Shown one piece after another: positions 4,970 to 36,098 of a DNA stretch of 64,000 nt. The position numbers and the translations under genes are program-made. Within the stretch, counting starts at the first letter, position 1. Every line of letters begins with the position of its first letter. The DNA comes from an uncultured Bacteroidales bacterium (GTDB lineage Bacteria > Bacteroidota > Bacteroidia > Bacteroidales > P3). The DNA lies in the NCBI GenBank assembly GCA_905234695.1, contig CAJOHZ010000002.1:1-64000 (forward strand), in the 5' to 3' direction. The notes beneath the pieces were generated by a model, which saw only the letters and a program-made list of their open reading frames with translations, had not been told where the DNA came from and did no database searches.

Positions 4970-5821
4970 TTAGAGGGATGCTTGAGCCACATTGAGTATC
5001 CTGCGGGAGCTTTTGTCCGATACAAAAGCCACCAGATGGCAATTTTCCGCGTGCCACCGCTCGTTCATATCGAACGGCAGGCGTACCGTGCGTTTTTCGC
5101 CAGCTGCGCCCGAGGCGGCGACATCGGTGCCCCAGGGGTCGGTGATGATGGCCCGCAACACGTGGTTCTGTTCATAGTTTTCGATTCGGGCCTTCGTGCG
5201 GCTGTCCTGGGCGGTGTATATCTTGTCTTCGGTCAGCAGCAAGGTGAGCGTCAGAGAGTCGTCCACCGTCTTTTCGAACGACAGATAGATGTCGGCGCCG
5301 GTGGTCTTGCCCCCGTCAGCCACGGGGACCACCTTGATGGACACCTCCGGTGCGGGGGAGATTACCGCATCAATCTTGTCGTCGAAGTTGCTCGTGGGAG
5401 TGAAAATATCCCATGCGGCACCGTTTTTCGCCCGCATCAGCAGGGCGGCGGGCTGGCCGCTGATGCCGAAATATTCATACCATTTTGAGCCGTCGCCGGT
5501 ACGCAGGTCTTCGTCGCCGCTGTAGGGCTCGCCAAAGGCGCCGGAGTGGATGGCCACCACGACCAGCTGTTCCCCATATTTCGCAAGGGCATCGTGAAGC
5601 ACCACATCGGCCTTGGGGCAGTTTACGCAGCGCACGCCGGTGTATTTCTCCACAAAGGCCCGCTGCACGGCAGGCACGTCCTCATCGGTGTCGTACCATG
5701 TGCCATTGGCGCCGGCATATACCCAATACTGCTCCTCTTCAACCTTGTCACAAGAGACGAGGAGGAATAGGAGGGATGAACTAAGAACCAGGAAGTATAG
5801 GAATCTCTTCATAATTATCAA
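4970..5821 (-). CDS. Omp28-related lipoprotein with thioredoxin-like CxxC (CVNC)
   Basis: Lipobox LLVSC; VQRAFVEKYTGVRCVNCPKADVVLHDALAKYGEQLVVVAIHSG as in the Omp28-related family. Confidence 0.8.
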   Translation of the reverse strand: MIIMKRFLYFLVLSSSLLFLLVSCDKVEEEQYWVYAGANGTWYDTDEDVPAVQRAFVEKYTGVRCVNCPKADVVLHDALAKYGEQLVVVAIHSGAFGEPYSGDEDLRTGDGSKWYEYFGISGQPAALLMRAKNGAAWDIFTPTSNFDDKIDAVISPAPEVSIKVVPVADGGKTTGADIYLSFEKTVDDSLTLTLLLTEDKIYTAQDSRTKARIENYEQNHVLRAIITDPWGTDVAASGAAGEKRTVRLPFDMNERWHAENCHLVAFVSDKSSRRILNVAQASL

Positions 5822-5829
5822 TTTTCGAT

Positions 5830-7500
5830 TTAGAACGAGCTAGTCAAACTGAAGGTGAGGCCATTGCTGGCGGGCACAGGGCGGCACACGCCGCCGATAC
5901 ACAGCAGCCCTTCGCGCTGCTTTCCGTAGCCAAGCTGGAGGCGGGTGGCGCCGTGGGTGTAGCCCACGCTGACGTTGTAGTAGTTGCCGATGCCGTCCTT
6001 GTATGCGTATTGGTCGCTGACCGACACAAACCATGCACTGGTGAAGTTATACTCCACCAATCCCATAATCCAGTCGCCGCAGCGTTTGTCGTTCACATTG
6101 TAGTCGTATTTGCTGTCGCTCTCCAACCATTCGGCTTCGAAACGCAGCACGTTTTTCTTGTTGATTTTCCATGTCAGGTCTCCGATGGCAACGATATTGT
6201 GGTGCAAGTCGCCCTCATGGCCTTCCACCACGGGGTTGAACACCTGGTAGCCGCCCGTCACAGTCAGTTTCAGTGACGAAGTCAACTTCCTGGCCACCTC
6301 CAGCGTGGCGTCGCCATAGTATAAATCGCCTGCTCCGAAATAGGTGGCGGTATATCCGTTGGTTCCCATGCCCCCCACTGTTGAGGTGTCAAGACCAGCG
6401 ATGATGGAGGTGTTAAAATGCAAATCCATGCCGTACTTACCCCCCAGCCAGGTGTCTTTCTTCACCTTGTACATCACGTCGCCTTGCAGCCCCGTCTCGC
6501 CAGTGGTCTGGGTGGCATAGGGGTACATGCTGAGAAATGCGTAAGTGTGCTGCTTGGTGATGGCAGGGATATAGTTGATATAGAGCATCTCGCCAGTAAC
6601 CGCGCGCTGAGACTTGAAGCACATGTTGTCCACCCGCTTGGCTTGTACGTTGGCGCTGAATCCCTTTTGCGAATAGGTGAGGTTCAGCATCAGGGCTTCG
6701 CCCTCTTTCATGATATAGTCGTTCATGATGCTCGGGTCTTGGCCCTTGCGGGCGTATTCGGCTTGCAGACCCCAGTTGAGGTAGGCCATATCCATGCGCA
6801 CTGCACCGGCCCCCACATTCAACGGGATATTCAGCTTATAGCTTGGGTTGGCCGGGTTGAGTTGCGTCTCACCCTCCTCGTATTTACTCACGAACCCCGC
6901 ACCAAGGGTCAAGCGGAGCTTGCTCTCGGACATGGGTTTGAGAAGACTGTTGAGGTTTAGCTCACCATCAATGCCGCGCACCAGCCCCTCGCCGTATTCC
7001 CAGAAAAAGCGTTGCTTTCCGGCCAAAGCCTTGATGGTAACACCGTCCACCGGACGCAGGGCGACATTCATGCCCAGCAACGAGTTGTCCAGGCCGAGGT
7101 ACCGATCCTCATAAGCCCGTAAAATCATGCCGCTACCGAATTGTTCATAGAAGGTACCGGCGGTGATGCTCAGTTTTTCGCCCATGTAGCTGACGAAATA
7201 GTTCGAGAAGCCCTGCCCCTTGTAGCGATTGTCGAATCCCAACATTGGGTTCTGGTAAATCTCGAAACGGAGACCTCCGATGAAGTCTCCGTTGGTGTAA
7301 AGGATGTCGGCCCGGCCGTTCAGCAGCACCCTCTCGGGTTTCATTTCGGCACCGATAAGGGTGTCGGTCCGTGTCAGCTGGCCATCCAGTTGAATATTGC
7401 CCGTCACATGGCCACCGGCAATGCCTTGGGCCCGCACCGCAGGTGCGACGAGAAGAAAGAGAGAAGAACTAAGAAGTAAGATGGCTGTTGCCCTTTTCAT
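5830..7500 (-). CDS. DUF6029 family protein (predicted outer-membrane beta-barrel-like)
   Basis: Signal peptide; GGLRFEIYQNPMLGFDNRYKGQGFSNYFVSYMGEKLSITAGTFYEQFGSGMILRAYEDRYLGLDNSL pattern of this Bacteroidota family. Confidence 0.75.
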   Translation of the reverse strand: MKRATAILLLSSSLFLLVAPAVRAQGIAGGHVTGNIQLDGQLTRTDTLIGAEMKPERVLLNGRADILYTNGDFIGGLRFEIYQNPMLGFDNRYKGQGFSNYFVSYMGEKLSITAGTFYEQFGSGMILRAYEDRYLGLDNSLLGMNVALRPVDGVTIKALAGKQRFFWEYGEGLVRGIDGELNLNSLLKPMSESKLRLTLGAGFVSKYEEGETQLNPANPSYKLNIPLNVGAGAVRMDMAYLNWGLQAEYARKGQDPSIMNDYIMKEGEALMLNLTYSQKGFSANVQAKRVDNMCFKSQRAVTGEMLYINYIPAITKQHTYAFLSMYPYATQTTGETGLQGDVMYKVKKDTWLGGKYGMDLHFNTSIIAGLDTSTVGGMGTNGYTATYFGAGDLYYGDATLEVARKLTSSLKLTVTGGYQVFNPVVEGHEGDLHHNIVAIGDLTWKINKKNVLRFEAEWLESDSKYDYNVNDKRCGDWIMGLVEYNFTSAWFVSVSDQYAYKDGIGNYYNVSVGYTHGATRLQLGYGKQREGLLCIGGVCRPVPASNGLTFSLTSSF

Positions 7501-7539
7501 GGTCTGTTAAATCTATCAAGTCTAGGTATCTATAAATCT

Positions 7540-8037
7540 TCAATCCTCCATGGCCTTCTTCACGACCTCCAGCAGCTCTTCCTCGCTGCCTTCGACAAAT
7601 GAGGTATGCTGCCACACGATTTCGCCTTTGCCATTCACCACAAAGGTGTGGGGTACATTGACCACGTTCATAGCGCGTTTGAAGTCCTGATTTTGGTCGA
7701 TGTACACCTCGTAGTCCCATCCGTTGCCGTCAACATGGGGTTTCACACGAGCCGCGCTGCGGGCGTCGTCAATCGAGATGGCCACCAGTTTCACACCGGT
7801 CTCATTCTGCCAGTCCTCATAAACCTCTTTGATGGTGTTCAACTCGCGGTTGCAGGGTTTGCACCAAGTGGCCCAGAAGCTGATGATCATCGGTTTTCCG
7901 TCATTCTGGAGGGCAGAAGTCTGCACACTGCTTCCGTCCAAAGCCTTTATCGTGATGTTTTGGGGCAGTTGGGCGTTCTGTGCCATGCCGATACAAGCCA
8001 TCGCCACAGCGGTCAAGGTTAAGAGAAATCTTTTCAT
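7540..8037 (-). CDS. TlpA/ResA-like thioredoxin family protein
   Basis: Signal peptide MKRFLLTLTAVAMACIGMAQ; FWATWCKPCNREL active site (CKPC); ORF extends to 8124 but ATG at 8037 precedes the signal peptide. Confidence 0.88.
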   Translation of the reverse strand: MKRFLLTLTAVAMACIGMAQNAQLPQNITIKALDGSSVQTSALQNDGKPMIISFWATWCKPCNRELNTIKEVYEDWQNETGVKLVAISIDDARSAARVKPHVDGNGWDYEVYIDQNQDFKRAMNVVNVPHTFVVNGKGEIVWQHTSFVEGSEEELLEVVKKAMED

Positions 8038-8147
8038 ATACGTCAAAAGTGTTTGTGATACGTAAATATTCTTGCTAAAAACGCATTTTTCCCTATTATA
8101 TTGTATCACCCGTAAAAAATTCATTATGTAAAAGAGCGCTTACCCAA

Positions 8148-8178
8148 AAAGCAGGGCCGCGTACCGCGGCCCTGCTTT
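8148..8178 (-). terminator. Rho-independent terminator downstream of ccsBA
   Basis: Perfect inverted repeat aaagcagggccgcg-tac-cgcggccctgcttt (14-bp arms, 3-nt loop) with flanking A/T run. Confidence 0.85.
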
Positions 8179-8207
8179 GATATAGTCATACCAGGGGTTC
8201 AATGTTG

Positions 8208-10337
8208 TCAGGCGTAGGAGTGCATCCCACCGAGCAACAGGTTGACGCCGAAGTAGGTGATGACAACGCTCAGAAATGCCAACAGACAGTAGAGATGGAA
8301 GAGCCTTGGATGGTGGCGAAGGCTCTTTTCGTAGAGCAGCGGCATGAGGTATATCAGCAGTGTGATAAGCGCCCATACCTCTTTGGGGTCCCAAGACCAA
8401 TAGCAGCCCCATGAGACATTGGCCCATACCGCGCCAATCATGATGCCTATGGCCAGCAATGCAGTCGCGGGGTACAGTAGCAACAGGCTGATGCGTTGCA
8501 GTCGGGTGGTTTGGGAACGCAAGATGAGCCCCGCCAAGCTGTTAAGCATGACGAAAAAGAAAAGGGCATAGGCCATCATGATGATGGTGACGTGGAGTGT
8601 TAGCAGTGGTGAGGACAGCACGGGCATGAGGTTGGTTATCGGCGGGTTGGATCCACTCATCATGGCCACCAGAAGACAAAATCCCATGGCGGGCAACGCG
8701 ATAGAAGGGGCTAGTCTGTGTCGGGGAGTTGCCAGCAGACCGATGACGCCGATGCCGATAGTCATCAGATTCATGCTGTCGAATCCGCCGGCCATGGGCG
8801 CATGGCCTCCCGCCACCCAGCGCAGTATGACGACAAGCAGCAGGAAGAGGGTCAGTGCCGCCACTGCCACCAGGGCAATTCCTTTGTTGATACAGGCCAC
8901 CTTTTCGTGGCGATTGTGGCAGTACAGCGCCAGCGCGAATGTTAGCAGTCCGAGTGTGATGCAGAGCATCGCCAACCATCTTCCGGTAGTGAGGGCATTG
9001 TAGAGTCGTTCGGCATTGATGCGACTCTCTGAGGGTAGCAGGTCTGCAGCTTGTCTCTGCTGAAATTGTCGAGTCTTCTCGAACACCGTTGAAAGCGTCT
9101 CGAAGTCGCCGCTTACCACCAACTCCTGACAATAGCTGAGTTGTTTTCGGACAAAAAGGTATTCGTCGTCGCCAACCCCGAGGGGCAGGTCATCGCTTTG
9201 CGAGTACCAATTGATGGTTCCATTGCTGTCGGCCAGTGGATAGATTTTAAGCATCTGACCGCTGAAAAGCATTTGTACGAGATTGTATTTCTCGTGTATG
9301 GCACGCATTCCACCAGGCATAGGGTGCCTTTCGAACAGGTCCTGATGGGCGGCCAGGTTACTGAACGAGGTATAGGCACCCTCCATGCCCAGTTGCCGAT
9401 GCATATCAACCCCTTTGACTTTTATCATCGGCTCCTGGCTCCAGTCATCGAAATAGAAGACCCATCCAGCCAGTACTTGTTCTGAGGAAAGCCCTTGATA
9501 GGTGGGTTTTCCATAGAGTTTTGTGGTGAAATCTTTTGCGAGGGTCTGCAGCGGAGATATCCGCCCCTTGTACAGCACGTACACCTGACCCATTTGATCC
9601 GCGACAGTTTGCGGCAGGGTGCGTGGAGTGGCGTGGGCAGTAACGCCGAAGGTCAACAGCAAAAGCAATGTGCCACCTTTCAACATACGGCGGAAACGCG
9701 AACCGGGCGTAAGAAACATCCATACCAGTCCCACCAGCAGCATCAGATAACCGAGATAGGTGACGGCGATGCCGACGGGGTCGTGCGCCACGCTCAGCGT
9801 GGAGTTTCCTTCGGAATCGTAGTCCTCTTGGTAGAAGCGGTATCCGTCTTTGCGCAGAATGTGGTTCATGGAAATATCCGCTGATTCTCCCTCTATATTT
9901 ACATGGCTCACGAAGTCCATCGGAGCCCGAGTTCCAGGATAGTTGACCACCTCAAACCGGTCAAGAATCAGCGTGAACGGCAAAATCGCCGTGTCACCAC
10001 TATCAGTTGTAAAAGAGGTGGTTGCCTTGCCGGGCTGCATGGTAACATGACCGTGCTGTCCAGTCCAGAAGGTGAGCGCGCCGCCAAGCAAGATGATTGC
10101 CACCGAGGAGCAGAGCAGCAGTCGGTGAGGAACAAGCCACAGACGGTGCCGTACCACGGCGGCCACCGCCGCCACTCCAAACACGGCTAACAGCAGGCAG
10201 AACCACCAGGAACCATAGAAGAGGTCGACGGCCACCTCATGTCCGCGGCTGCGTTCCACAATGGTACCGACGGCGAACACGCACACCGTCGGCACCATGA
10301 GGATGAGTGGCCATAGTTTCGAGAGTTTCCGTGACAT
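8208..10337 (-). CDS. System II cytochrome c biogenesis protein, ResB-CcsA fusion (CcsBA-like)
   Basis: N-terminal ResB-like part (VGTIVERSRGHEVAVDLFYGSWWF); C-terminal CcsA haem-handling WGCYWSWDPKEVWAL (WGxxWxWD); ATG at 10337. Confidence 0.9.
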   Translation of the reverse strand: MSRKLSKLWPLILMVPTVCVFAVGTIVERSRGHEVAVDLFYGSWWFCLLLAVFGVAAVAAVVRHRLWLVPHRLLLCSSVAIILLGGALTFWTGQHGHVTMQPGKATTSFTTDSGDTAILPFTLILDRFEVVNYPGTRAPMDFVSHVNIEGESADISMNHILRKDGYRFYQEDYDSEGNSTLSVAHDPVGIAVTYLGYLMLLVGLVWMFLTPGSRFRRMLKGGTLLLLLTFGVTAHATPRTLPQTVADQMGQVYVLYKGRISPLQTLAKDFTTKLYGKPTYQGLSSEQVLAGWVFYFDDWSQEPMIKVKGVDMHRQLGMEGAYTSFSNLAAHQDLFERHPMPGGMRAIHEKYNLVQMLFSGQMLKIYPLADSNGTINWYSQSDDLPLGVGDDEYLFVRKQLSYCQELVVSGDFETLSTVFEKTRQFQQRQAADLLPSESRINAERLYNALTTGRWLAMLCITLGLLTFALALYCHNRHEKVACINKGIALVAVAALTLFLLLVVILRWVAGGHAPMAGGFDSMNLMTIGIGVIGLLATPRHRLAPSIALPAMGFCLLVAMMSGSNPPITNLMPVLSSPLLTLHVTIIMMAYALFFFVMLNSLAGLILRSQTTRLQRISLLLLYPATALLAIGIMIGAVWANVSWGCYWSWDPKEVWALITLLIYLMPLLYEKSLRHHPRLFHLYCLLAFLSVVITYFGVNLLLGGMHSYA

Positions 10338-10338
10338 G

Positions 10339-11937
10339 CTAGATGGCGTTGATGAATTTGACCACGGCTTCCCGATCTTCTTTCGACAGTTGGCGGAATT
10401 TCTCCACTGTCCAGCGGGCATCGCTGCCGGGGCAACCATGCCACATGATGGCTTCCATTACGTTACGGGCACGGCAGTCGTGCAGACGATCAGCATGACC
10501 GCTGCATACAGGCGATAACCCACGCCCCCACAGCGGGGTGGTGCGGCACCAGCCTGTGCGAATGTCGTTGGGCATACGGAGACGGTGCTGGACCATGTCG
10601 CTATACGGCCATATTTTCTGATAAGGATAGCGTGGCAGCCGTGCGTCGGCATCGCTGAAAAAGCCGTTGGGGTCAGTGAAGTTGTCGGGACCTGTGGTCC
10701 AACTGGGACGGTGGCAGGCAGCACATCCCAGGTCGCGGAACAGCTTGCGTCCCCGTTGAACGGTGGGGTCGGCTAGGTTACGGGCGGCAGGTACTGCCAA
10801 ACCACGATGCCACACCATGAAGTCTACATAATTCTGGTCACTCATCTCGGCGGGCAACGTGTCGCACATCAGGTAATTGTAGATGTCGGTCTCGGGGTCG
10901 CCACTCTTGTTCCATTGGGGGAAGTAGCGGTAAAAATCGGCCTGTACTTCGGGGTCTTGCGAGGCGCGGGTGGCATAGATACTCTTGTTGAGACTGAGAT
11001 AATGGCTCCGGCGGTCACTGCGGTTGACGTTTGTGATATTCCAGATGGCATTGGCGCCAGCGGCATCCTGCAAGGGTCCGCGGCTCAGCGCGTAGGTGAA
11101 CCGTTTGGGGTGGGTAGTGTTGCCGTACAATGATGCCCAGTCAGCGCCGGCCCAGATAGCAGGATTGAGGTCCGCACCAGCCTCGTATTCTTTCAGGTAC
11201 TGCGCTTTGAGCGAGTCGTCGGGGATGGCGTCAAGTAACCCTGTACCATAGATACCGATGGTGCTTTCCAAACGGAATCCCAGATTGGCATAGGGTACGG
11301 AAAGCGGTGCGTAAAAAGCATCTTCAGGGATGGTGACTTCAGGGTATATCAGGCTGTAACTCTCGCCGTCGGGGAAGGTGTTTCCCCATTCGTCAGTGTA
11401 ACTGAGCCAAGCAATGTCAATTTTGCTTTCGTCAATGGAGGGTTTGAAGGGAGCCACCGCCTTTGTTTGTGGCATTCCGGCCACCGAGGTCTCGTAGGGT
11501 TCATTGGGGAGGGTTTTGTTATACACTACCAGCAGGTATCCGTTGCCCCAGTCGTCGGCGCGATAGCGCTCCATACGGCGGCCGTGGCCATAGCCTGGAT
11601 GGCAGGCCTCGCATGACGAACGTACATACAACGGTCCTAAACCGTTGAATGGCGGGTTGTTTTGGGTGACCGTGTGTTCAAAGAAGAATTCCCCGTATTT
11701 GAAGGCATTCACCATGCCAGCCTGCTCAACGGCAGGGGTGGGGTCCTCGAAGGCCGAGGCCGATTGGTTGAAGGTGGTCCCCAGTCGTCCACCGGCATAG
11801 GTCTCTTCTTCAACTCCCTCGGCGGCAGGACTGCCGGGTTCTATAGGGGTGATCTCTTCCGGATCCTTATTGCATGCCACTAGCCCCACCAGAGTGAAAG
11901 CAGCAACCAAAGAGAATAAACGTGTGTGTCTCATCAT
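10339..11937 (-). CDS. di-heme oxidoreductase (DHOR/DUF1111-type, putative thiol oxidoreductase) lipoprotein
   Basis: Lipobox LVAC; two c-type haem motifs CEACH and CAACH; WCRTTPLWGRGLS...DRLHDCRARNVMEAIMWHG typical of the family. Confidence 0.88.
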   Translation of the reverse strand: MMRHTRLFSLVAAFTLVGLVACNKDPEEITPIEPGSPAAEGVEEETYAGGRLGTTFNQSASAFEDPTPAVEQAGMVNAFKYGEFFFEHTVTQNNPPFNGLGPLYVRSSCEACHPGYGHGRRMERYRADDWGNGYLLVVYNKTLPNEPYETSVAGMPQTKAVAPFKPSIDESKIDIAWLSYTDEWGNTFPDGESYSLIYPEVTIPEDAFYAPLSVPYANLGFRLESTIGIYGTGLLDAIPDDSLKAQYLKEYEAGADLNPAIWAGADWASLYGNTTHPKRFTYALSRGPLQDAAGANAIWNITNVNRSDRRSHYLSLNKSIYATRASQDPEVQADFYRYFPQWNKSGDPETDIYNYLMCDTLPAEMSDQNYVDFMVWHRGLAVPAARNLADPTVQRGRKLFRDLGCAACHRPSWTTGPDNFTDPNGFFSDADARLPRYPYQKIWPYSDMVQHRLRMPNDIRTGWCRTTPLWGRGLSPVCSGHADRLHDCRARNVMEAIMWHGCPGSDARWTVEKFRQLSKEDREAVVKFINAI

Positions 11938-11962
11938 ATTTGTTTTTTTAGATTAGATGGGT

Positions 11963-13135
11963 TTAGTTATTACGCAGATAGTCGATGGCAGTACCTAATG
12001 CATCGCTCAACTCAGCACAGGCTTCCACGGCAGCCCCGTTAGCGGCATCGCTATAGTGCAATACAAAGGGAACTGGCATGGCATCAATCTTGGCCAGAGC
12101 GTTGTCGATGGCGGCACAAATGGTGGCATCCAGCGAGGCGTTACGGTCGCTGAGGTATTTGTGCAACGATTTGTCGTTGTTGCGCTGCCCCACCACGCCG
12201 CCATAGTACACATTCTGGATGCTGACGATGTTGTTATGGAAGTCGATGATGGATTTTTGGCTGTAGGGCGACTCGATATAAGTGATGTCCTCGCCGTGCC
12301 ATGCAGCGTAGATTTTCGAACTGCCCACTTCGTCGGCAATATCCGAGCAGCCCTGCATGATGGCCATGAGGGCAGCGTTCCGGCTGGCATAGGTGCTTCC
12401 AGCCTTGCCGGCATTCTTCATGTTTTGGCCGTAACTGCTGCTGCCACCAGCCACGGTATAGCTCATCTCCATTTCGTCGAGTTTAGAGATATGGCTCGCC
12501 GGGGCATTGTCGCCCATCCAGCCCACCTCTAGCTGATAGCAACGGTTGCGCAAATCGCCCGACACAGCCACGACGTATGTCCATTGGTCGGCAGTGATGT
12601 CCGAGATATTCTTGGCATGTCCGTCAGTAAACAGGATGTATTCGATGCCGTGGAATCCCAACAGGGCGTTTCCCAGTCGCTCACCAGCTACCACATCGCC
12701 ATCATCGCCCTCAAGGGCGGCTAGCATAGCGGGACTGTTCATCAGTGTGTGGAAGGCATCTTCGTCCAACGGCCATGAGTCGATATGCGGGTCAATGCCG
12801 AAATCGCCCGCTGCGCCGAAGAGGAAGGCTTCGCTTTTCTCCCATTCCTCGCGGGCGGCAAGGAATGTCTCGCAGGCAGTCTGCAAACCAGATTGGGAAG
12901 GATTGGCCTTCAACGCAGCCAGCTGATCGGCCAACAACTCGGCTTTGGCAGCCAAGGCACCATATGTGGGGGCCACGGTGTGGTCCACAAACTGGGCGGC
13001 CACTTCCGCTGCCGCTTGCTCGTCGTTGGTAAGTGTTCCGGGTTCAGGGACTGGCTCATCTTTTTTGCAGCCCGACAGGCATACAGCGGCAGTCAACGCC
13101 ACCGCCATGCAGAGTTTTACTAAAGGTTTTTTCAT
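11963..13135 (-). CDS. imelysin (M75-like) family lipoprotein
   Basis: Lipobox CLSGCKK; GFHGIEYILF (GxHxxE motif); HGEDITYIESPYSQKSIIDFHNNIVSIQNVYYGG. Confidence 0.87.
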   Translation of the reverse strand: MKKPLVKLCMAVALTAAVCLSGCKKDEPVPEPGTLTNDEQAAAEVAAQFVDHTVAPTYGALAAKAELLADQLAALKANPSQSGLQTACETFLAAREEWEKSEAFLFGAAGDFGIDPHIDSWPLDEDAFHTLMNSPAMLAALEGDDGDVVAGERLGNALLGFHGIEYILFTDGHAKNISDITADQWTYVVAVSGDLRNRCYQLEVGWMGDNAPASHISKLDEMEMSYTVAGGSSSYGQNMKNAGKAGSTYASRNAALMAIMQGCSDIADEVGSSKIYAAWHGEDITYIESPYSQKSIIDFHNNIVSIQNVYYGGVVGQRNNDKSLHKYLSDRNASLDATICAAIDNALAKIDAMPVPFVLHYSDAANGAAVEACAELSDALGTAIDYLRNN

Positions 13136-13172
13136 GGTATTGAAGTTTAGTTGATGTATTGATTTCGGATAT

Positions 13173-14462
13173 CTAGTTAAAAAATCCCGCCCATGTCATG
13201 CCGACGGCTACCCAGGGTTCAGGGTTGTATTGGCTACTGAACCGGCGTAGTCCCCATTCGGCTTTGACGGCGATTTTAGGCAGCGGAAAATAGTTCACGC
13301 CGATAGTCAGCACTTGCCGGGCAGTCCATTCGATATCGGCAAATCCCTCGGCAGGCACATAACTGTCATACTGGTCATAACGGCCGAAAAGGTAAAGTTT
13401 CTGGTCAGTCGAACTCCAGGCCATGAGATTGAGCCCCACCTCGTGAGAGATGTCATAAGCATTACGCCCCACAGGTGTGTGGGGATAGGGATTGCCCGTC
13501 ATAGTGGTCTGATTCTTGTTGCGAGTCGAGACAAGGTCGGCATCATCCAGATAGCCGTAGTCCACGTTTCCGCGCACCATGAAATACTTATTTTTGAAGG
13601 CGAAGTCGAAGGCTCCTACCAGCACTGTCCCAGTGGCACCATAGTATTTCGATGTCTCTTGATATACGGTGGTGGTTATGTCGTTGTTGAATGTGTTGCC
13701 CGCATAGCCCGAGATGCTCATCCGCAAGCCACGGACACCGATCCAGTCTACACGGAACGCTCCTGCCAAACTGTTGGCAGGACGGAACTCGTATGGTGAG
13801 GCAGATCCATTGTGAATCCATCCTGCCTCGTTGAACAGGTTACTATTCAAGGCAGGTAACAATTGCACTTCATACCGCCAAGCACCCGCACGCCCCCACA
13901 GGCTCACACCCGTCTCGTGCCATGTACAGGGCAAAATAGTATTCTCGCCCTCAGGTCGATAAACGGTAAAGAACTGCGTGGGCAGGTGGCTGTTGTTGGT
14001 CATGCCTACAGGCACTACGATATGCCCTGCACGGATGTTCAACGCGGGGCTGAAGCTCTTCTGTACCCAGAACTGCTCCAATGCCACCTCACCACCACGC
14101 TCCACTTCTTGCTCGAATTCGCCAGTTTCTTCTGTCTCTTTCTCAACTGCGGCTTCCACACCTCCGTGTTCGAACTCTATTTCAGTGCCCATGCTCCATC
14201 CGTGGCCATAATCATAGCCTAGCATCAGTACAGCATGAGGCAGGTCCACCCGTCCGTGACCACGGCTGTCAGCATAGCGGTCGGCGTGGGAATACCGGAA
14301 CACATTGTCGCTATAGAAATTGTATTTGTATACAGCCTCTCCGTAACCACCAATAGTGAGGCGGTTCGCTTTGGCGGAGCTGTCCTGTTGGGCCGACACA
14401 GAAATGGTTGCGGCTCCCATCAACAATGTGCAAACAACTGCTTTTGTGATAATTCTGCTCAT
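13173..14462 (-). CDS. outer-membrane porin-like beta-barrel protein
   Basis: Signal peptide MSRIITKAVVCTLLMGAATISVSAQQ; repeated beta-strand patterns; ends in aromatic VGMTWAGFFN; ORF extends to 14513. Confidence 0.72.
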   Translation of the reverse strand: MSRIITKAVVCTLLMGAATISVSAQQDSSAKANRLTIGGYGEAVYKYNFYSDNVFRYSHADRYADSRGHGRVDLPHAVLMLGYDYGHGWSMGTEIEFEHGGVEAAVEKETEETGEFEQEVERGGEVALEQFWVQKSFSPALNIRAGHIVVPVGMTNNSHLPTQFFTVYRPEGENTILPCTWHETGVSLWGRAGAWRYEVQLLPALNSNLFNEAGWIHNGSASPYEFRPANSLAGAFRVDWIGVRGLRMSISGYAGNTFNNDITTTVYQETSKYYGATGTVLVGAFDFAFKNKYFMVRGNVDYGYLDDADLVSTRNKNQTTMTGNPYPHTPVGRNAYDISHEVGLNLMAWSSTDQKLYLFGRYDQYDSYVPAEGFADIEWTARQVLTIGVNYFPLPKIAVKAEWGLRRFSSQYNPEPWVAVGMTWAGFFN

Positions 14463-14664
14463 GGCATACATTGATTTTGTTTTGCAAAGATCGTAAATGC
14501 CGCATGTCTGCACAATCCCTATTAGTGGTTATTTTTAGTGCCGGCTAAACGCGACAAACTTCCGCAATAATCCTTTGCGGAAAATCTAACGAATTGTGTG
14601 ATAGTTTGTAATGAAAAGAATCCCGTTATGTACGCGACTCACTACTGTTAATGATTCTCTCACC

Positions 14665-18907: not shown

Positions 18908-21046
18908 TCAATGAACCAAACGGGCGGTGCGTGCGCCGCAGCGCACAAAGTAGATACCCCGTGCCAAACGGGAGATATCAAGGGTGCCCTCCATCGTGAT
19001 TTCTTTCTGAATAACAGGACGGCCCTCCATTGTGTAGACGGTGACCCGCTCAGGCGTGTGGCGCCCCGTAAGCACGGTAACTGTCGTGGCGGCGGGATTA
19101 GGATAGAGTTGTAACGATTTGGCAAAGAACTCCTCGCTGGCTGTCTGTATATCTACACGGGACAATGCTTCGTTAACAGCGGCCATGGCATCCACCTTGC
19201 CCCATCCCCAGCGGTCACTGATGCTGTCGCGCTCATGCAGGGGTCCGGTAACAGAATCGTTGCGAGCGGTGCTGCACAGAATTTCACGCACTTCCGCTGA
19301 AGTGAGATCAGGATTGGCCTGCAGCAGCAAGGCAACAATGCCTGTGACGGCGGGCGACGACATTGAGGTGCCGCTCATGGCAGCCCACACATAGGTACGT
19401 CCATTGAAGGAGTATGTCATCGAAGATGTATAGCTGCTGGTAGTATATGAGCTTATGGAAGAGATTACATTGGAACCAGGGGCAGAGATTTCTGGTTTCA
19501 TGCGGCCGTCGATGACTGGTCCCTGGCTGGAGAATGTCGTCAAACCTCCCGGTACTATGGTGCCGTCGGGCTTGCGGGTTTCAGCACGATGGGCAGCAAC
19601 GGCAATGCAGTTGGCTGCAGCCGCAGGCTCGCCGATACCACTGATGTTGTCGCCTGCACTATAGCCCTGCAGGTTGTGGTGGGCATATACACAGCCCATA
19701 TTGCCTGCCCCGTTGGAGAGGTTACAGACATTCCATGCGTGTACTTTTCCCTCCGTGGCAGTAATAAAGAGATGGATGAGGTAGTTGGGATTTTTGTCCA
19801 CATTAATAAGCACATGCGGCCGCTGGTTAAAACGGCAAGACTGTTCCACCGTCATGTTGAAATGGAGCGTGTCGTAGCCCGTGCTGTCATTGCCGGCCAC
19901 CAGTGCGCTGTCCAGATAACGGTCGCCATCAGTGGTGCTGACCCACCGCATCTGGGTGGGCTCACCGTTGCGCACCATGGCAAACGAGACATCGAATGCC
20001 TTGCCTGGCTCCCCCCAGAGGATAAGGGCCTGGCCAATTTCGCTGCCTCCATAGTATTCGGCCACCGTGCGTAACGTATCAGCGCTGTCGGCGGTGAAAG
20101 TACGGGAGATATGAAAGAGGTCGTCGCCACAGTTGCCTGCACTGGTCACAAAGACGATGCCGCTGTCGCTGTAGCTGTTGAGGGCCTGGCTAAGGTATGA
20201 GGTGCCGTCAATTGGGCCAAGGGTGTACATGCCCCAGCTGCTATTGATGACCAGTCGTTTCTGCTCCTGTTTCGATACCTGCCACATCCATTCCACCGCG
20301 TCAAGCCACGAGTATTCATCGAGCATGAAGGTGGCGAACAGTAGGTTGGCGTCAGGGGCTTGGCCTACATACCTGTCGTCAATGCCGCGTCCTGCCGCTA
20401 TGCCCGCCACATGAGTACCATGGGTGCCATAGTCGTAGATGTTAGCCGTGTCGCCACCGGCGGCTTTCAATTCCTCACGGGTGTTGAACACAGTGCCATA
20501 GTCGAACCCGTCAGGAGCAGGTCCTGCTTGCCGGAACTGATCCCATGCACGGAGCAGGCGGAAATTGCTGCGCCCCTTGTTGTTGTAATTAATATGCATG
20601 TAGTCGAACCCCCAGTCGGTGATACCTACCAACACACCCTGACCTGTGTAGGCCTGCGGGAGACCATTGCCGGCATGAACGCTGTCGGTTCGGGTATCGA
20701 CACGGGTCTTGTTGAGGTGCGGATAGAGCGGGCGTGCCACGCTGTAGCCCACAATCTCGGGACACTGGTCCACTTCGCCGAGCAATGCCAGTGGGAGTCG
20801 CAAGGTGACAATGTGGCCGGCACGGACACCCACCGTGATACCTTTGGCCCGGAAGGCGTCGGCATCAAACCGTTCGCTTACTTCGGCCAACAGCTTTACT
20901 TCTGCCGCACTGCTTTTGGTTTGGCTTTGGCGCAGCAACGCCACACGGGAGGTGGCGTCGCATTTCGGATGACTGTCAAGACGCACGGTCTGTCCCACCG
21001 CGCTGAAGGCGGTCAGCAGGGCCGCCACAAGGAGTATCTTCTTCAT
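18908..21046 (-). CDS. S8 (subtilisin-like) serine peptidase with T9SS C-terminal sorting domain
   Basis: Catalytic Asp GITDWGFD, His YGTHGTHVAGIAAGRG, Ser MSGTSMSSPAVTG; C-terminal LQLYPNPAATTVTV...GIYFVRCGARTARLVH; signal-peptide ATG at 21046. Confidence 0.92.
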   Translation of the reverse strand: MKKILLVAALLTAFSAVGQTVRLDSHPKCDATSRVALLRQSQTKSSAAEVKLLAEVSERFDADAFRAKGITVGVRAGHIVTLRLPLALLGEVDQCPEIVGYSVARPLYPHLNKTRVDTRTDSVHAGNGLPQAYTGQGVLVGITDWGFDYMHINYNNKGRSNFRLLRAWDQFRQAGPAPDGFDYGTVFNTREELKAAGGDTANIYDYGTHGTHVAGIAAGRGIDDRYVGQAPDANLLFATFMLDEYSWLDAVEWMWQVSKQEQKRLVINSSWGMYTLGPIDGTSYLSQALNSYSDSGIVFVTSAGNCGDDLFHISRTFTADSADTLRTVAEYYGGSEIGQALILWGEPGKAFDVSFAMVRNGEPTQMRWVSTTDGDRYLDSALVAGNDSTGYDTLHFNMTVEQSCRFNQRPHVLINVDKNPNYLIHLFITATEGKVHAWNVCNLSNGAGNMGCVYAHHNLQGYSAGDNISGIGEPAAAANCIAVAAHRAETRKPDGTIVPGGLTTFSSQGPVIDGRMKPEISAPGSNVISSISSYTTSSYTSSMTYSFNGRTYVWAAMSGTSMSSPAVTGIVALLLQANPDLTSAEVREILCSTARNDSVTGPLHERDSISDRWGWGKVDAMAAVNEALSRVDIQTASEEFFAKSLQLYPNPAATTVTVLTGRHTPERVTVYTMEGRPVIQKEITMEGTLDISRLARGIYFVRCGARTARLVH

Positions 21047-21075
21047 GCTGGAAAGATAATGTTTCGCTGTTGTTT

Positions 21076-21786
21076 TCAATCGAGGTACTTCAAGACTTCC
21101 CCCCCTTTGAACAAGGCATGTATCACGGTGCCGTCCTTCTCGGTCAAGACCCCTTCGCCGTCGTATTTTCCGTTCTTCCACTCACCTTTGTAGTGCGAAC
21201 CGTCGGAATAGAGCACGGTGCCTTTGCCGTCGAACTTGCCGTTCTTCCACTGGCCCTTGTAGTTGGAGCCGTCTTCGTACACGATTTCGCCTTTGCCGTC
21301 CATACGGCCGAACATCCACTTGCCTTTGTACACGGTGCCGTTGGCCCAGTGACGCTCACCATAGCCATGGCAAACACCATTCACAAAATCACCTTCATAA
21401 TAGTCTTTGGGATCGGGGGCAAAGGTGTAGATGCCCTTCCCGGTACGGTTCTCGTCGAAAGTGCCGGTCAGTTTGTCTCCGTTGGCATAGTAATAGGTGC
21501 CTTCTCCTTTGGGACTACCTTTCACCCAAGTGCCCTCATAGCGACCACCATCGTGGTATTTATACACTCCTTGGCCGTGGAACACATCGTTCTTCCACTC
21601 GCCGTCATAACGGTCGCCATTGGCAAATTCCAAGGTGCCATAGCCTGCACGGCGTTCGTGCGAGTCACGGGTACCAGTATAACGGTCGCCATTGCCATAG
21701 ACTTTCGTGCCCACATCCTGAGTGTATCCGAGTTGACTGTAAAGCAGTGCAATAACAAGTATTGCAAAAGATAATTTATGTGTCAT
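21076..21786 (-). CDS. secreted MORN-repeat protein
   Basis: Signal peptide then about 9 MORN units (YEGTWVKGSPKGEGTYYYANGDK, YKGQWKNGKFDGKGTVLYSDGSH...). Confidence 0.9.
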   Translation of the reverse strand: MTHKLSFAILVIALLYSQLGYTQDVGTKVYGNGDRYTGTRDSHERRAGYGTLEFANGDRYDGEWKNDVFHGQGVYKYHDGGRYEGTWVKGSPKGEGTYYYANGDKLTGTFDENRTGKGIYTFAPDPKDYYEGDFVNGVCHGYGERHWANGTVYKGKWMFGRMDGKGEIVYEDGSNYKGQWKNGKFDGKGTVLYSDGSHYKGEWKNGKYDGEGVLTEKDGTVIHALFKGGEVLKYLD

Positions 21787-33596: not shown

Positions 33597-36098
33597 TTAC
33601 TGCGGGTCGACGTCGAAGTGAACTTGAAGTGCGGTAAAGCGCTTGTCGGATTTGAGTTTGTCGGCGATGTCAAGGATTATACGCTTGGCCTCAGCAATAG
33701 GTTCCGTGCGTTCGAAACGCAAAATGATTTTCTTGAGATACAACCCCCGTACACGGGTGATGCTAGGGTATTCGGGTCCCATGACACGGGTAGAGAAGAC
33801 ACCACGCAACTGTGAGGCATAGAGGTCGGCGACTTCGTTGAGGAGATCGCTCACCCGGTGTTTGAGGGTGATGTCAATCAGCCGGTAATAGGGCGGATAG
33901 CGGAACACCCTGCGCTCCACAATCTGGCTTTCGTACATGGCGGTATAGTCGTTGTCGATGACATTGCGGATGGCCTCGTGGTAGGGGTTGTAGGTTTGGA
34001 TGATGACCTTGCCCTGCCGACCGTGGCGACCGGCGCGACCGCTCACCTGCGTCATCTGCTGAAAGGCCCGCTCGAAGGCACGAAAATCGGGGAAATAGAT
34101 AAGGTTGTCGGCACTGACGATACCTACTACGCTCACATGGTCGAAGTCGAGCCCTTTGGTGACCATCTGTGTGCCTACCAGAATGTCGATGCGGCGGTCT
34201 TGGAAGTCGTTGATGATTTCAAGGTAGCGGTTCTTCTGCAGGGTGCTGTCGAGGTCCATGCGTGCCACTTTGGCTTTGGGGAAGATTATGCTTAGGTCGT
34301 CCTCGATGCGTTCGGTGCCGAAGCCTTTCATGGAGAGGTGCTGCGAGTGGCAGGCGGGGCATTCGGTGGGCAGCGGTACAGAATAGCCGCAGTAGTGGCA
34401 CCGCATACTGTTGGAGGCCTTGTGGTAGACCAGCGAGACATCGCAGTGCTGGCACTTGGGGGTCCAGTGGCAATCGTCGCACTCTATACGCAGCGAGAAT
34501 CCGCGCCGATTCTGGAATAGGATGACCTGCTCGTGTCGGTCAAGGGCTTCGCGGATGTGGTCGAGGAGGAATTTGGAGAAGTGGGTAGCCATCGGCGCCG
34601 TGCCACCCGACTCGCGTCGGAGGCGATTGGACTCTTCCTTCATATCGGCACACAACACCTCGGGCAGTTGCAGGCCACCAAACCGCTTGTGCATCTCGCA
34701 GAAACCGTATTTCCCCTGTTTGGCATTGAAATAGCTCTCGACGGAGGGCGTGGCCGACCCGAGGACCGTGCGGGCATTCCAGAGGTGGGCAAGGTAGATG
34801 GCGGCATCGCGCCCGTGATAACGGGGGGCGGGGTCGTATTGTTTGTAGGAACTGTCGTGTTCTTCATCGATTATGACCAATCCCAAATCGCGGAAAGGGA
34901 GGAATGTGGCGCTGCGAGCACCGAGGAGCACCTGATAACGTTGCGCCGGGTCGGAATGCATGGTGCGATACCATACCTCTGCCCGTTGTGAGGCATTGAA
35001 ACGGGAGTGGTAGACTCCCACACGGTCACCGAAATAGCGTCGCAATCGATTGATGATTTGTGCTGTGAGGGCAATCTCCGGCAACAGGAAGAGCGCCTGA
35101 CGACCTTGGCGGATGCAGTCAGCGATAAGGCGGATGTAGACTTCCGTCTTGCCCGACGAAGTGACCCCGTGGAGCAGTGCCACCGGCTTGTCGCAATGGG
35201 TAAGATAGTTGTAGGCCGCCTGTTGCTCGTCGTTGAGTTGTATGCTGTCGGGAGAGGATGTGCTGTCAAAATGCTGGAGGCGCGACTCCACACGCTCTTC
35301 CAACACCAGCACACCGTTGCGCACCAGCGTCTTGAGGGCCGACTCGGAGAGAGATGACCCTTCTGGGGTGGGTTCCATCAAGGTACGACGGGCCACAGCC
35401 TCGTGACCAAAGTTGCTGAGCTGCATGAATCGCATCAGCAAATCCACCTGCTTCTGAGTGCTTTTCTTCCGCTCTAACGTGTCAAATAGCATTCGGGCAC
35501 GGTCAGAGTCATGGTATTCAGAAGCCAGCGAGAGATAGGTCGATGTGCGTGGCACATAACGCTCACGCAACTCCTCATCCATCACAATGATGCCCTGTTC
35601 TATCATGGTGTTGAGCAATGGCATCATCTTCTGCAGCCCGATGGCCTTGCCAATCTCATCGACCGTCATGACAGGATGATCGCTGAGCAGGTTGACCACA
35701 CGCAGTTCGTTAGCCGATAGGTCAGATAATTCGCCCGAGAAATCGGGATGAATGGTCACAGAGGCCTCGCTGGCCAGCCGAAACGCCGATGGCAGCGCGA
35801 TGGCCATCACATCGCCCACATAACTCATATAATATTCCGCCAGCCACTCCCAAAAGCAGAGTTCATGCTCGTCGACGATAGGATTGACATCAAGGATGGA
35901 GAGCAGGTATTTCACCTTGTATTGCGGCACCTCCTCATGGATGCGCCGTACCACAGCAGCATATAGTTTACGAGTACCGAATTGTACTACAACTCGTTGC
36001 CCGACTTTTATAGCATCATTATACTCCTGCGGTACCCGATAGGTGTAGGTACCGTGGATGTGCAGTGGCAATATGACGTCGACGAAATATGTATGCAT
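33597..36098 (-). CDS. priA: primosomal protein N' (replication restart helicase)
   Basis: VALLHGVTSSGKTEVYIRL (Walker A); DEEHDSSYKQYDPAPRYHGRDAA; C4 zinc motifs CDDCHWTPKCQHCDVSL; GTQMVTKGLDFDHV. Confidence 0.96.
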   Translation of the reverse strand: MHTYFVDVILPLHIHGTYTYRVPQEYNDAIKVGQRVVVQFGTRKLYAAVVRRIHEEVPQYKVKYLLSILDVNPIVDEHELCFWEWLAEYYMSYVGDVMAIALPSAFRLASEASVTIHPDFSGELSDLSANELRVVNLLSDHPVMTVDEIGKAIGLQKMMPLLNTMIEQGIIVMDEELRERYVPRTSTYLSLASEYHDSDRARMLFDTLERKKSTQKQVDLLMRFMQLSNFGHEAVARRTLMEPTPEGSSLSESALKTLVRNGVLVLEERVESRLQHFDSTSSPDSIQLNDEQQAAYNYLTHCDKPVALLHGVTSSGKTEVYIRLIADCIRQGRQALFLLPEIALTAQIINRLRRYFGDRVGVYHSRFNASQRAEVWYRTMHSDPAQRYQVLLGARSATFLPFRDLGLVIIDEEHDSSYKQYDPAPRYHGRDAAIYLAHLWNARTVLGSATPSVESYFNAKQGKYGFCEMHKRFGGLQLPEVLCADMKEESNRLRRESGGTAPMATHFSKFLLDHIREALDRHEQVILFQNRRGFSLRIECDDCHWTPKCQHCDVSLVYHKASNSMRCHYCGYSVPLPTECPACHSQHLSMKGFGTERIEDDLSIIFPKAKVARMDLDSTLQKNRYLEIINDFQDRRIDILVGTQMVTKGLDFDHVSVVGIVSADNLIYFPDFRAFERAFQQMTQVSGRAGRHGRQGKVIIQTYNPYHEAIRNVIDNDYTAMYESQIVERRVFRYPPYYRLIDITLKHRVSDLLNEVADLYASQLRGVFSTRVMGPEYPSITRVRGLYLKKIILRFERTEPIAEAKRIILDIADKLKSDKRFTALQVHFDVDPQ

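Follow-up and report, generated by a model that had tools for sequence, protein, structure and literature searches.

Four adjacent genes from an uncultured Bacteroidales bacterium, encoding a porin, an imelysin lipoprotein, the di-haem protein DHOR, and the haem c synthetase CcsBA in the order of transcription, are a conserved unit whose members are inherited together, and we consider it fairly probable that they constitute an iron-limitation operon capturing iron at the outer membrane. The window, i.e. the whole stretch of DNA that was analysed, comprises 64,000 nt (assembly GCA_905234695.1, contig CAJOHZ010000002.1, positions 1–64,000, forward strand). The four minus-strand open reading frames, their intergenic gaps of 37 nt (porin–imelysin), 25 nt (imelysin–DHOR), and 1 nt (DHOR–CcsBA), and the 14-bp terminator hairpin described in an earlier note on this DNA were all confirmed (Table 1). 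The porin has an alternative in-frame ATG at 14471. The two arms of the terminator (8148–8161 and 8165–8178, 14 nt each, 100% complementary) were recovered by a repeat search, a terminator scan of the window having missed the hairpin, and an Rfam search gave no match. Past the terminator, Pfam identified TlpA-like, DUF6029, and Omp28-family genes (window 4970–8124). These three were considered as members of the module and rejected; the order porin–imelysin–DHOR–CcsBA recurs across Bacteroidales, whereas they are not kept beside the cluster in related loci and are a separate unit. Elsewhere in the window, a subtilase with a type IX secretion tail is encoded at 18908–21181.

Table 1. Positions in the window of the genes, motifs, and putative regulatory elements of the operon
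Feature	Coordinates	Strand	Basis
Porin, 16-strand outer-membrane barrel, first operon gene	13173–14462	-	ORF; AlphaFold2 pLDDT 80; Foldseek matches to general porins
Imelysin (M75) lipoprotein, canonical topology, GxHxxE at H162/E165	11963–13135	-	PF09375 E 7e-50; motif 78/78; PDB relatives 3n8u, 4ecg
DHOR di-haem c-type lipoprotein, divergent Bacteroidales subfamily	10339–11937	-	PF06537 E 1e-33; two CxxCH
CcsBA (ResB-CcsA fusion), system II haem c synthetase	8208–10337	-	PF05140 (ResB) E 2e-15; PF01578 (Cytochrom_C_asm) E 4e-31
First haem c site of DHOR, CEACH	11599–11613	-	Invariant in 80 sequences
Second haem c site of DHOR, CAACH	10711–10725	-	Invariant in 80 sequences
Glutamate-rich hairpin, porin residues 94–129, predicted extracellular side	codons 14076–14183	-	42 orthologues, distant porins, paralogue comparison
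Palindromic operator AAATAACCACTAATAGGGATTG, degenerate copy of AAATCACCAnTnnTGGTGATTG	14513–14534	-	PWM score 25.5; upstream conservation 71/76
Putative Bacteroidales-type -7 box GATCTTTG (consensus TAnnTTTG, one mismatch), 20 nt past operator	14485–14492	-	Spacing kept in 42 relatives
Intrinsic terminator: perfect 14-bp stem, 3-nt loop, T run	8148–8178	-	Repeat search

We collected 80 loci with a relative of DHOR, which belong to Bacteroidales, mostly MAGs from the ruminant gut, and also to Phocaeicola. Nearly all of them contain porin, imelysin, and DHOR genes followed by CcsBA, in most cases in the same order, with median gaps of 42, 28, and 66 nt; the gene next to that of imelysin is DHOR in nearly all, and the exceptions are mostly truncated contigs or loci with a rearranged CcsBA. 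Because the gene set is retained so widely, the arrangement is not a matter of chance, and the gene-neighbourhood check on the four genes proposed in the earlier note revealed an order conserved in relatives. When 198 Bacteroidales genomes were sampled evenly, full-length porin and DHOR turned up in identical sets of 26 genomes (Fisher p 4e-33). G096, with a weak DHOR match below the curated cut-off, is left out of this count, and the porin of G180 is a fragment close to the end of a contig and not full-length. Imelysin occurred in 25 of the 26 genomes with DHOR and in one other (Fisher p 2e-29), and a CcsA-domain gene in all 26.

Several loci depart from this picture. Locus L125 (genome G247), from the same genus as the window, is a decaying module: its porin is intact, whereas imelysin is missing, along with the greater part of DHOR and half of CcsBA. 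Locus L129 (G107) has an imelysin without DHOR, beside an HTTM/gamma-carboxylase-like protein and a TonB receptor, and L117 contains a tandem pair of DHOR genes inside the cluster. Loci L108, L113, L114, and similar ones are of a second type, with a canonical DHOR and often a circularly permuted imelysin, while the window form combines an imelysin of canonical topology with a divergent DHOR. L113 additionally has genes for Porin_O_P, a PSCyt1 haem protein, and a protein with a RidA domain before CcsBA.

The genes are further tied together by a shared operator. The 22-bp palindrome AAATCACCAnTnnTGGTGATTG precedes the porin in 71 of 76 sequences. A TAnnTTTG box usually follows 20 nt later (20–21 nt in 42 relatives), and this box may serve as a promoter element, judging from its sequence and position. 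The operator persists in most families of a Bacteroidales order sample. The scan of the window's own genome covered 831 kb of 2.47 Mb, with five second-order Markov sequences as controls, in which sites at score 15 numbered about one on average and those at score 20 at most one. The site before the porin was the best scorer, and the best sites accompanied by the box were the one preceding the porin, whose box has one mismatch, and those preceding a DUF4491 gene and a ZIP permease; the feoB operator was weaker, with a score of 13.5. Since members of the ZIP family often carry Zn or Mn, the operator alone does not prove the metal. In the same genome, the region L141:7549-11128 contains DUF4491, a Flavodoxin_4 lipoprotein, and the ZIP permease, with two copies of the operator. 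A canonical Fur box (GATAATGATAATCATTATC-like) upstream of the porin was sought and rejected, as its best scores equalled those of shuffled sequence, and a sigma-70 promoter scan did not outperform shuffled sequence, in line with expectation for Bacteroidota.

CcsBA located away from DHOR had its own operator in eight of nine cases (L030, L031, L042, L044, L059, L063, L064, and L091, but not L079; L039, where a contig end cuts off CcsBA, is left out of the count), against none of 60 when adjacent to DHOR (p 1e-9). The operator of the moved CcsBA usually lies 47–55 nt before the start codon. In intermediate cases with a gap of 150–300 nt, the sites were weaker or absent, and a DHOR displaced from its porin also had the operator upstream. 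The operator is thus a new part that ties the genes together even in a split operon. In relatives, operator-like sites additionally precede the genes for a class I SAM methyltransferase (L032, L036, L047), hemerythrin(-LuxR) regulators (L030, L104, L086), DUF2023, which is a flavodoxin partner (L110), and, in one relative, a His-rich P-type ATPase (L078). The SAM methyltransferase, hemerythrin-LuxR, and DUF2023 families are members of the published low-iron stimulon (PMC10434189), the text of which contains no operator motif.

In CcsBA, the ResB and CcsA domains are fused according to Pfam, and the WWD haem-handling motif WGCYWSWDPKEVWALI can be read in the translation. It is the only CcsA-domain gene in the window's genome, and NrfA was found neither in this genome nor in the whole genus. 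The earlier note had claimed that the operon carries its own haem-attachment enzyme, and this claim is supported: a count of other CcsBA copies in the genome yielded no second CcsA-domain gene, NrfA is absent, and the moved CcsBA retains the operator. The accompanying count of CxxCH motifs gave 258 matches against 176 in the reversed control and was discarded as an uninterpretable measure of cytochromes; the CDDCH and CPACH motifs at 34347–34481 of the window, considered as further cytochromes, were rejected as zinc motifs of PriA. Among 66 genomes of the window's genus, CcsA was present in all 53 with DHOR, and 11–12 of the 13 without DHOR also lacked CcsA, the higher number counting the G243 match as noise. 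We treated that match (E 9e-4, internal stops) as noise, a CcsBA profile finding nothing there; G205, which likewise has no DHOR, has a CcsA fragment at a contig start. The association has a Fisher p of about 1e-11, which overstates the evidence, as genomes of the same genus are related and not independent samples. Another genus of the same family combines NrfA with a CcsA that is not fused, and CcsA without DHOR or NrfA is present in some genomes of the family; the apparent dedication of CcsBA to DHOR is therefore a property of this genus and not of the family. We infer that DHOR is the main, perhaps the only, haem c client of CcsBA in this genus.

The porin of the window matched no Pfam family and had no relative in a PDB sequence search, and it folds as a porin barrel (Table 1), the model and the fold search indicating that it is not a TonB receptor. 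Porin_O_P (PF07396) gave no match over the Pfam cut-off for this porin, and 3 of 42 relatives matched it weakly. The glutamate-rich hairpin forms the second predicted extracellular loop and contains 13–14 invariant glutamates and His99 in 42 orthologues; residues 100–124 of the loop are of low confidence in the model. It is retained in DHOR-linked porins of distant families. By contrast, nine paralogous porins of other genomes (L130–L138) lack the hairpin, about 26 residues being missing. The acidic hairpin, specific to DHOR-linked porins, is a second new part. The paralogous porins belong to the same barrel family, have the same operator upstream in five of nine cases, and are followed by an FMN_bind protein in the four loci tested (4/4). 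These loci have neither imelysin nor DHOR, and their redox-cofactor neighbour uses flavin rather than haem; they appear to represent a parallel flavin-based iron module, a second combination of a porin with a redox-cofactor protein.

The imelysin scored 170.6 bits with PF09375 (curated cut-off 23.5). Its GxHxxE motif, GFHGIE in the window, is present in all 78 sequences, and the lipid cysteine C23 in 77 of them. Acidic residues follow the lipid cysteine in most orthologues, which fits the surface-export signal of Bacteroidota. The imelysin BT2479 has been detected in culture supernatant, and a BT2479 mutant retained EspB-cleaving activity (PMC6282197); the BT2479 signal peptide has been used for cargo secretion from Bacteroidaceae (PMC13192842). 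DHOR, of which the window's genome has one, scored 116.8 bits with PF06537 (curated cut-off 22), with a divergent central region. Both haem motifs, C109xxC112H and C405xxC408H, were found in 80 of 80 sequences, and the non-haem cysteines C464 and C478 in 79 of 80. A PDB sequence search with DHOR returned no relative. Its structure model is of low confidence (pLDDT 62) and gave no significant fold match, MauG appearing as a non-significant hint; we rejected the model for placing haem ligands or a substrate site, as it was too poor and the fold search meaningless.

The closest known systems are the imelysin-DUF1111 (DHOR) operons, which are tied to iron and Fur-regulated in P. aeruginosa (Xu et al. 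2011, PMC3143127). In P. aeruginosa PA4370–PA4373, V. cholerae VC1264–VC1266, and the Bacteroides PIBO locus, an imelysin with GxHxxE lies beside a di-haem DHOR, and as in the window, both are envelope lipoproteins linked to iron. The same paper already described a permuted Bacteroides imelysin and proposed that DHOR with imelysin parallels EfeB with EfeO. The window differs from these operons in that it adds the glutamate-hairpin porin and the CcsBA haem ligase, has no second, IPPA-type imelysin, and uses as operator a palindrome that does not resemble the canonical Fur box. In B. thetaiotaomicron, BT2473–BT2482, which includes a porin, a thiol oxidoreductase, a peptidase M75, and CcsA, was induced 63- to 324-fold by low iron in RNA-seq and also raised in a colitis data set; the CcsA/ResB genes linked to nrfAH, by contrast, fell about 30-fold in low iron (Lewis and Gui 2023, PMC10434189). 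This locus resembles the window in porin, DHOR, imelysin (M75), and CcsA, but it is larger, and by analogy with L113 it probably also includes a Porin_O_P and a PSCyt1-type haem gene; the window represents a compact four-gene form. Gene order, co-occurrence, the operator, and the iron induction of this counterpart all support the earlier proposal of an iron-linked module with its own haem ligase, although the core idea, imelysin working with DHOR for iron, is already known. To this idea, the analysis adds an acidic hairpin in the porin, the operator, and a dedicated haem ligase.

EfeUOB/EfeUOM and the window both combine an imelysin domain with a haem protein for iron. However, the imelysin scored 21.9 bits with the NCBIfam EfeO model against a cut-off of 270 and had no cupredoxin match, no EfeU (Ftr1-type) permease is encoded in the operon or its flanks, and DHOR, a haem c protein, stands in place of the DyP haem b protein EfeB. 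The window module is not a member of EfeUOB, and we see in it a Bacteroidales form of the imelysin-DHOR iron operons already known, one that brings a haem-c ligase of its own and a specialised porin.

An iron-limitation operon of this kind might work as follows. At low iron, a repressor would leave the operator. The porin with its glutamate-rich surface hairpin would gather iron ions and admit them without TonB, the imelysin lipoprotein would bind iron via the GxHxxE site, and the di-haem DHOR would alter the redox state of this iron, most probably by reduction of Fe3+ to Fe2+, or else by controlled oxidation before handover. FeoB or ZIP could then carry the metal across the inner membrane. 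CcsBA would mature DHOR, and it would be induced with the set because DHOR is presumably its principal client.

The same genes could instead serve peroxide defence, with DHOR as a MauG/CcpA-like di-haem peroxidase at the envelope, imelysin keeping iron from Fenton chemistry, and the low-iron induction reflecting stress overlap. Pfam labels DHOR a putative peroxidase, and MauG was the sole hint, not a significant one, from the fold search. Nevertheless, the operator groups the operon with metal permeases, no peroxide regulon gene was found beside an operator in the 831 kb of the own genome, and peroxidase work needs no dedicated acidic porin; we therefore regard this explanation as rather unlikely. 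A role in handling a divalent metal other than iron (Zn, Mn, or Cu), under the operator of that metal's regulator, would suit the sites before the ZIP-family permease and the His-rich P-type ATPase of one relative. It is nonetheless unlikely in view of the sites carried by feoB and the genes for DUF2023, the SAM methyltransferase, and the hemerythrin regulators, families in the low-iron stimulon, and of the response of BT2473–BT2482 to iron (PMC10434189).

Thiol-disulfide chemistry, which the name thiol oxidoreductase implies, would give a role to the conserved C464 and C478 and recalls the TlpA-like thioredoxin gene just past the terminator; as this gene is not kept beside the operon and the two cysteines may form a structural disulfide, we find such a role very improbable. 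Bacteroidales depend on haem salvage, and surface DHOR and imelysin might acquire or store gut haem or haem peptides instead of inorganic iron. The haem ligase inside the operon and the low-iron response shared by the hmu haem genes (PMC10434189) agree with this notion, but CcsBA attaches the CxxCH haem covalently and from the inside, imelysins are tied to iron and not to haem (PMC3143127), and the porin is not a TonB receptor, which makes haem a quite unlikely target. As for the iron-capture reading that we prefer, a cell starved for iron pays a high price for making a haem protein, which counts against it. More tentatively, and with some inclination to doubt, we suggest that a Bacteroidales-wide metal operator, absent from the literature that we found, controls a TonB-independent system of iron capture, equipped with its own haem-c ligase, in which imelysin and a di-haem cytochrome, both on the surface, cooperate with an acidic-loop porin, and that other genomes have a parallel porin-flavoprotein version.

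Bacteroidales dominate the gut and the rumen. Expression of the counterpart locus rises strongly in low iron as well as in colitis, its function and operator not being described there (PMC10434189). The present analysis provides a concrete operator, a glutamate hairpin, and a dedicated haem ligase, each of which is accessible to single mutations, and it poses the puzzle of why an iron-starved cell spends haem on an envelope cytochrome. The four-gene set is inherited and regulated as one, most likely for obtaining scarce iron.
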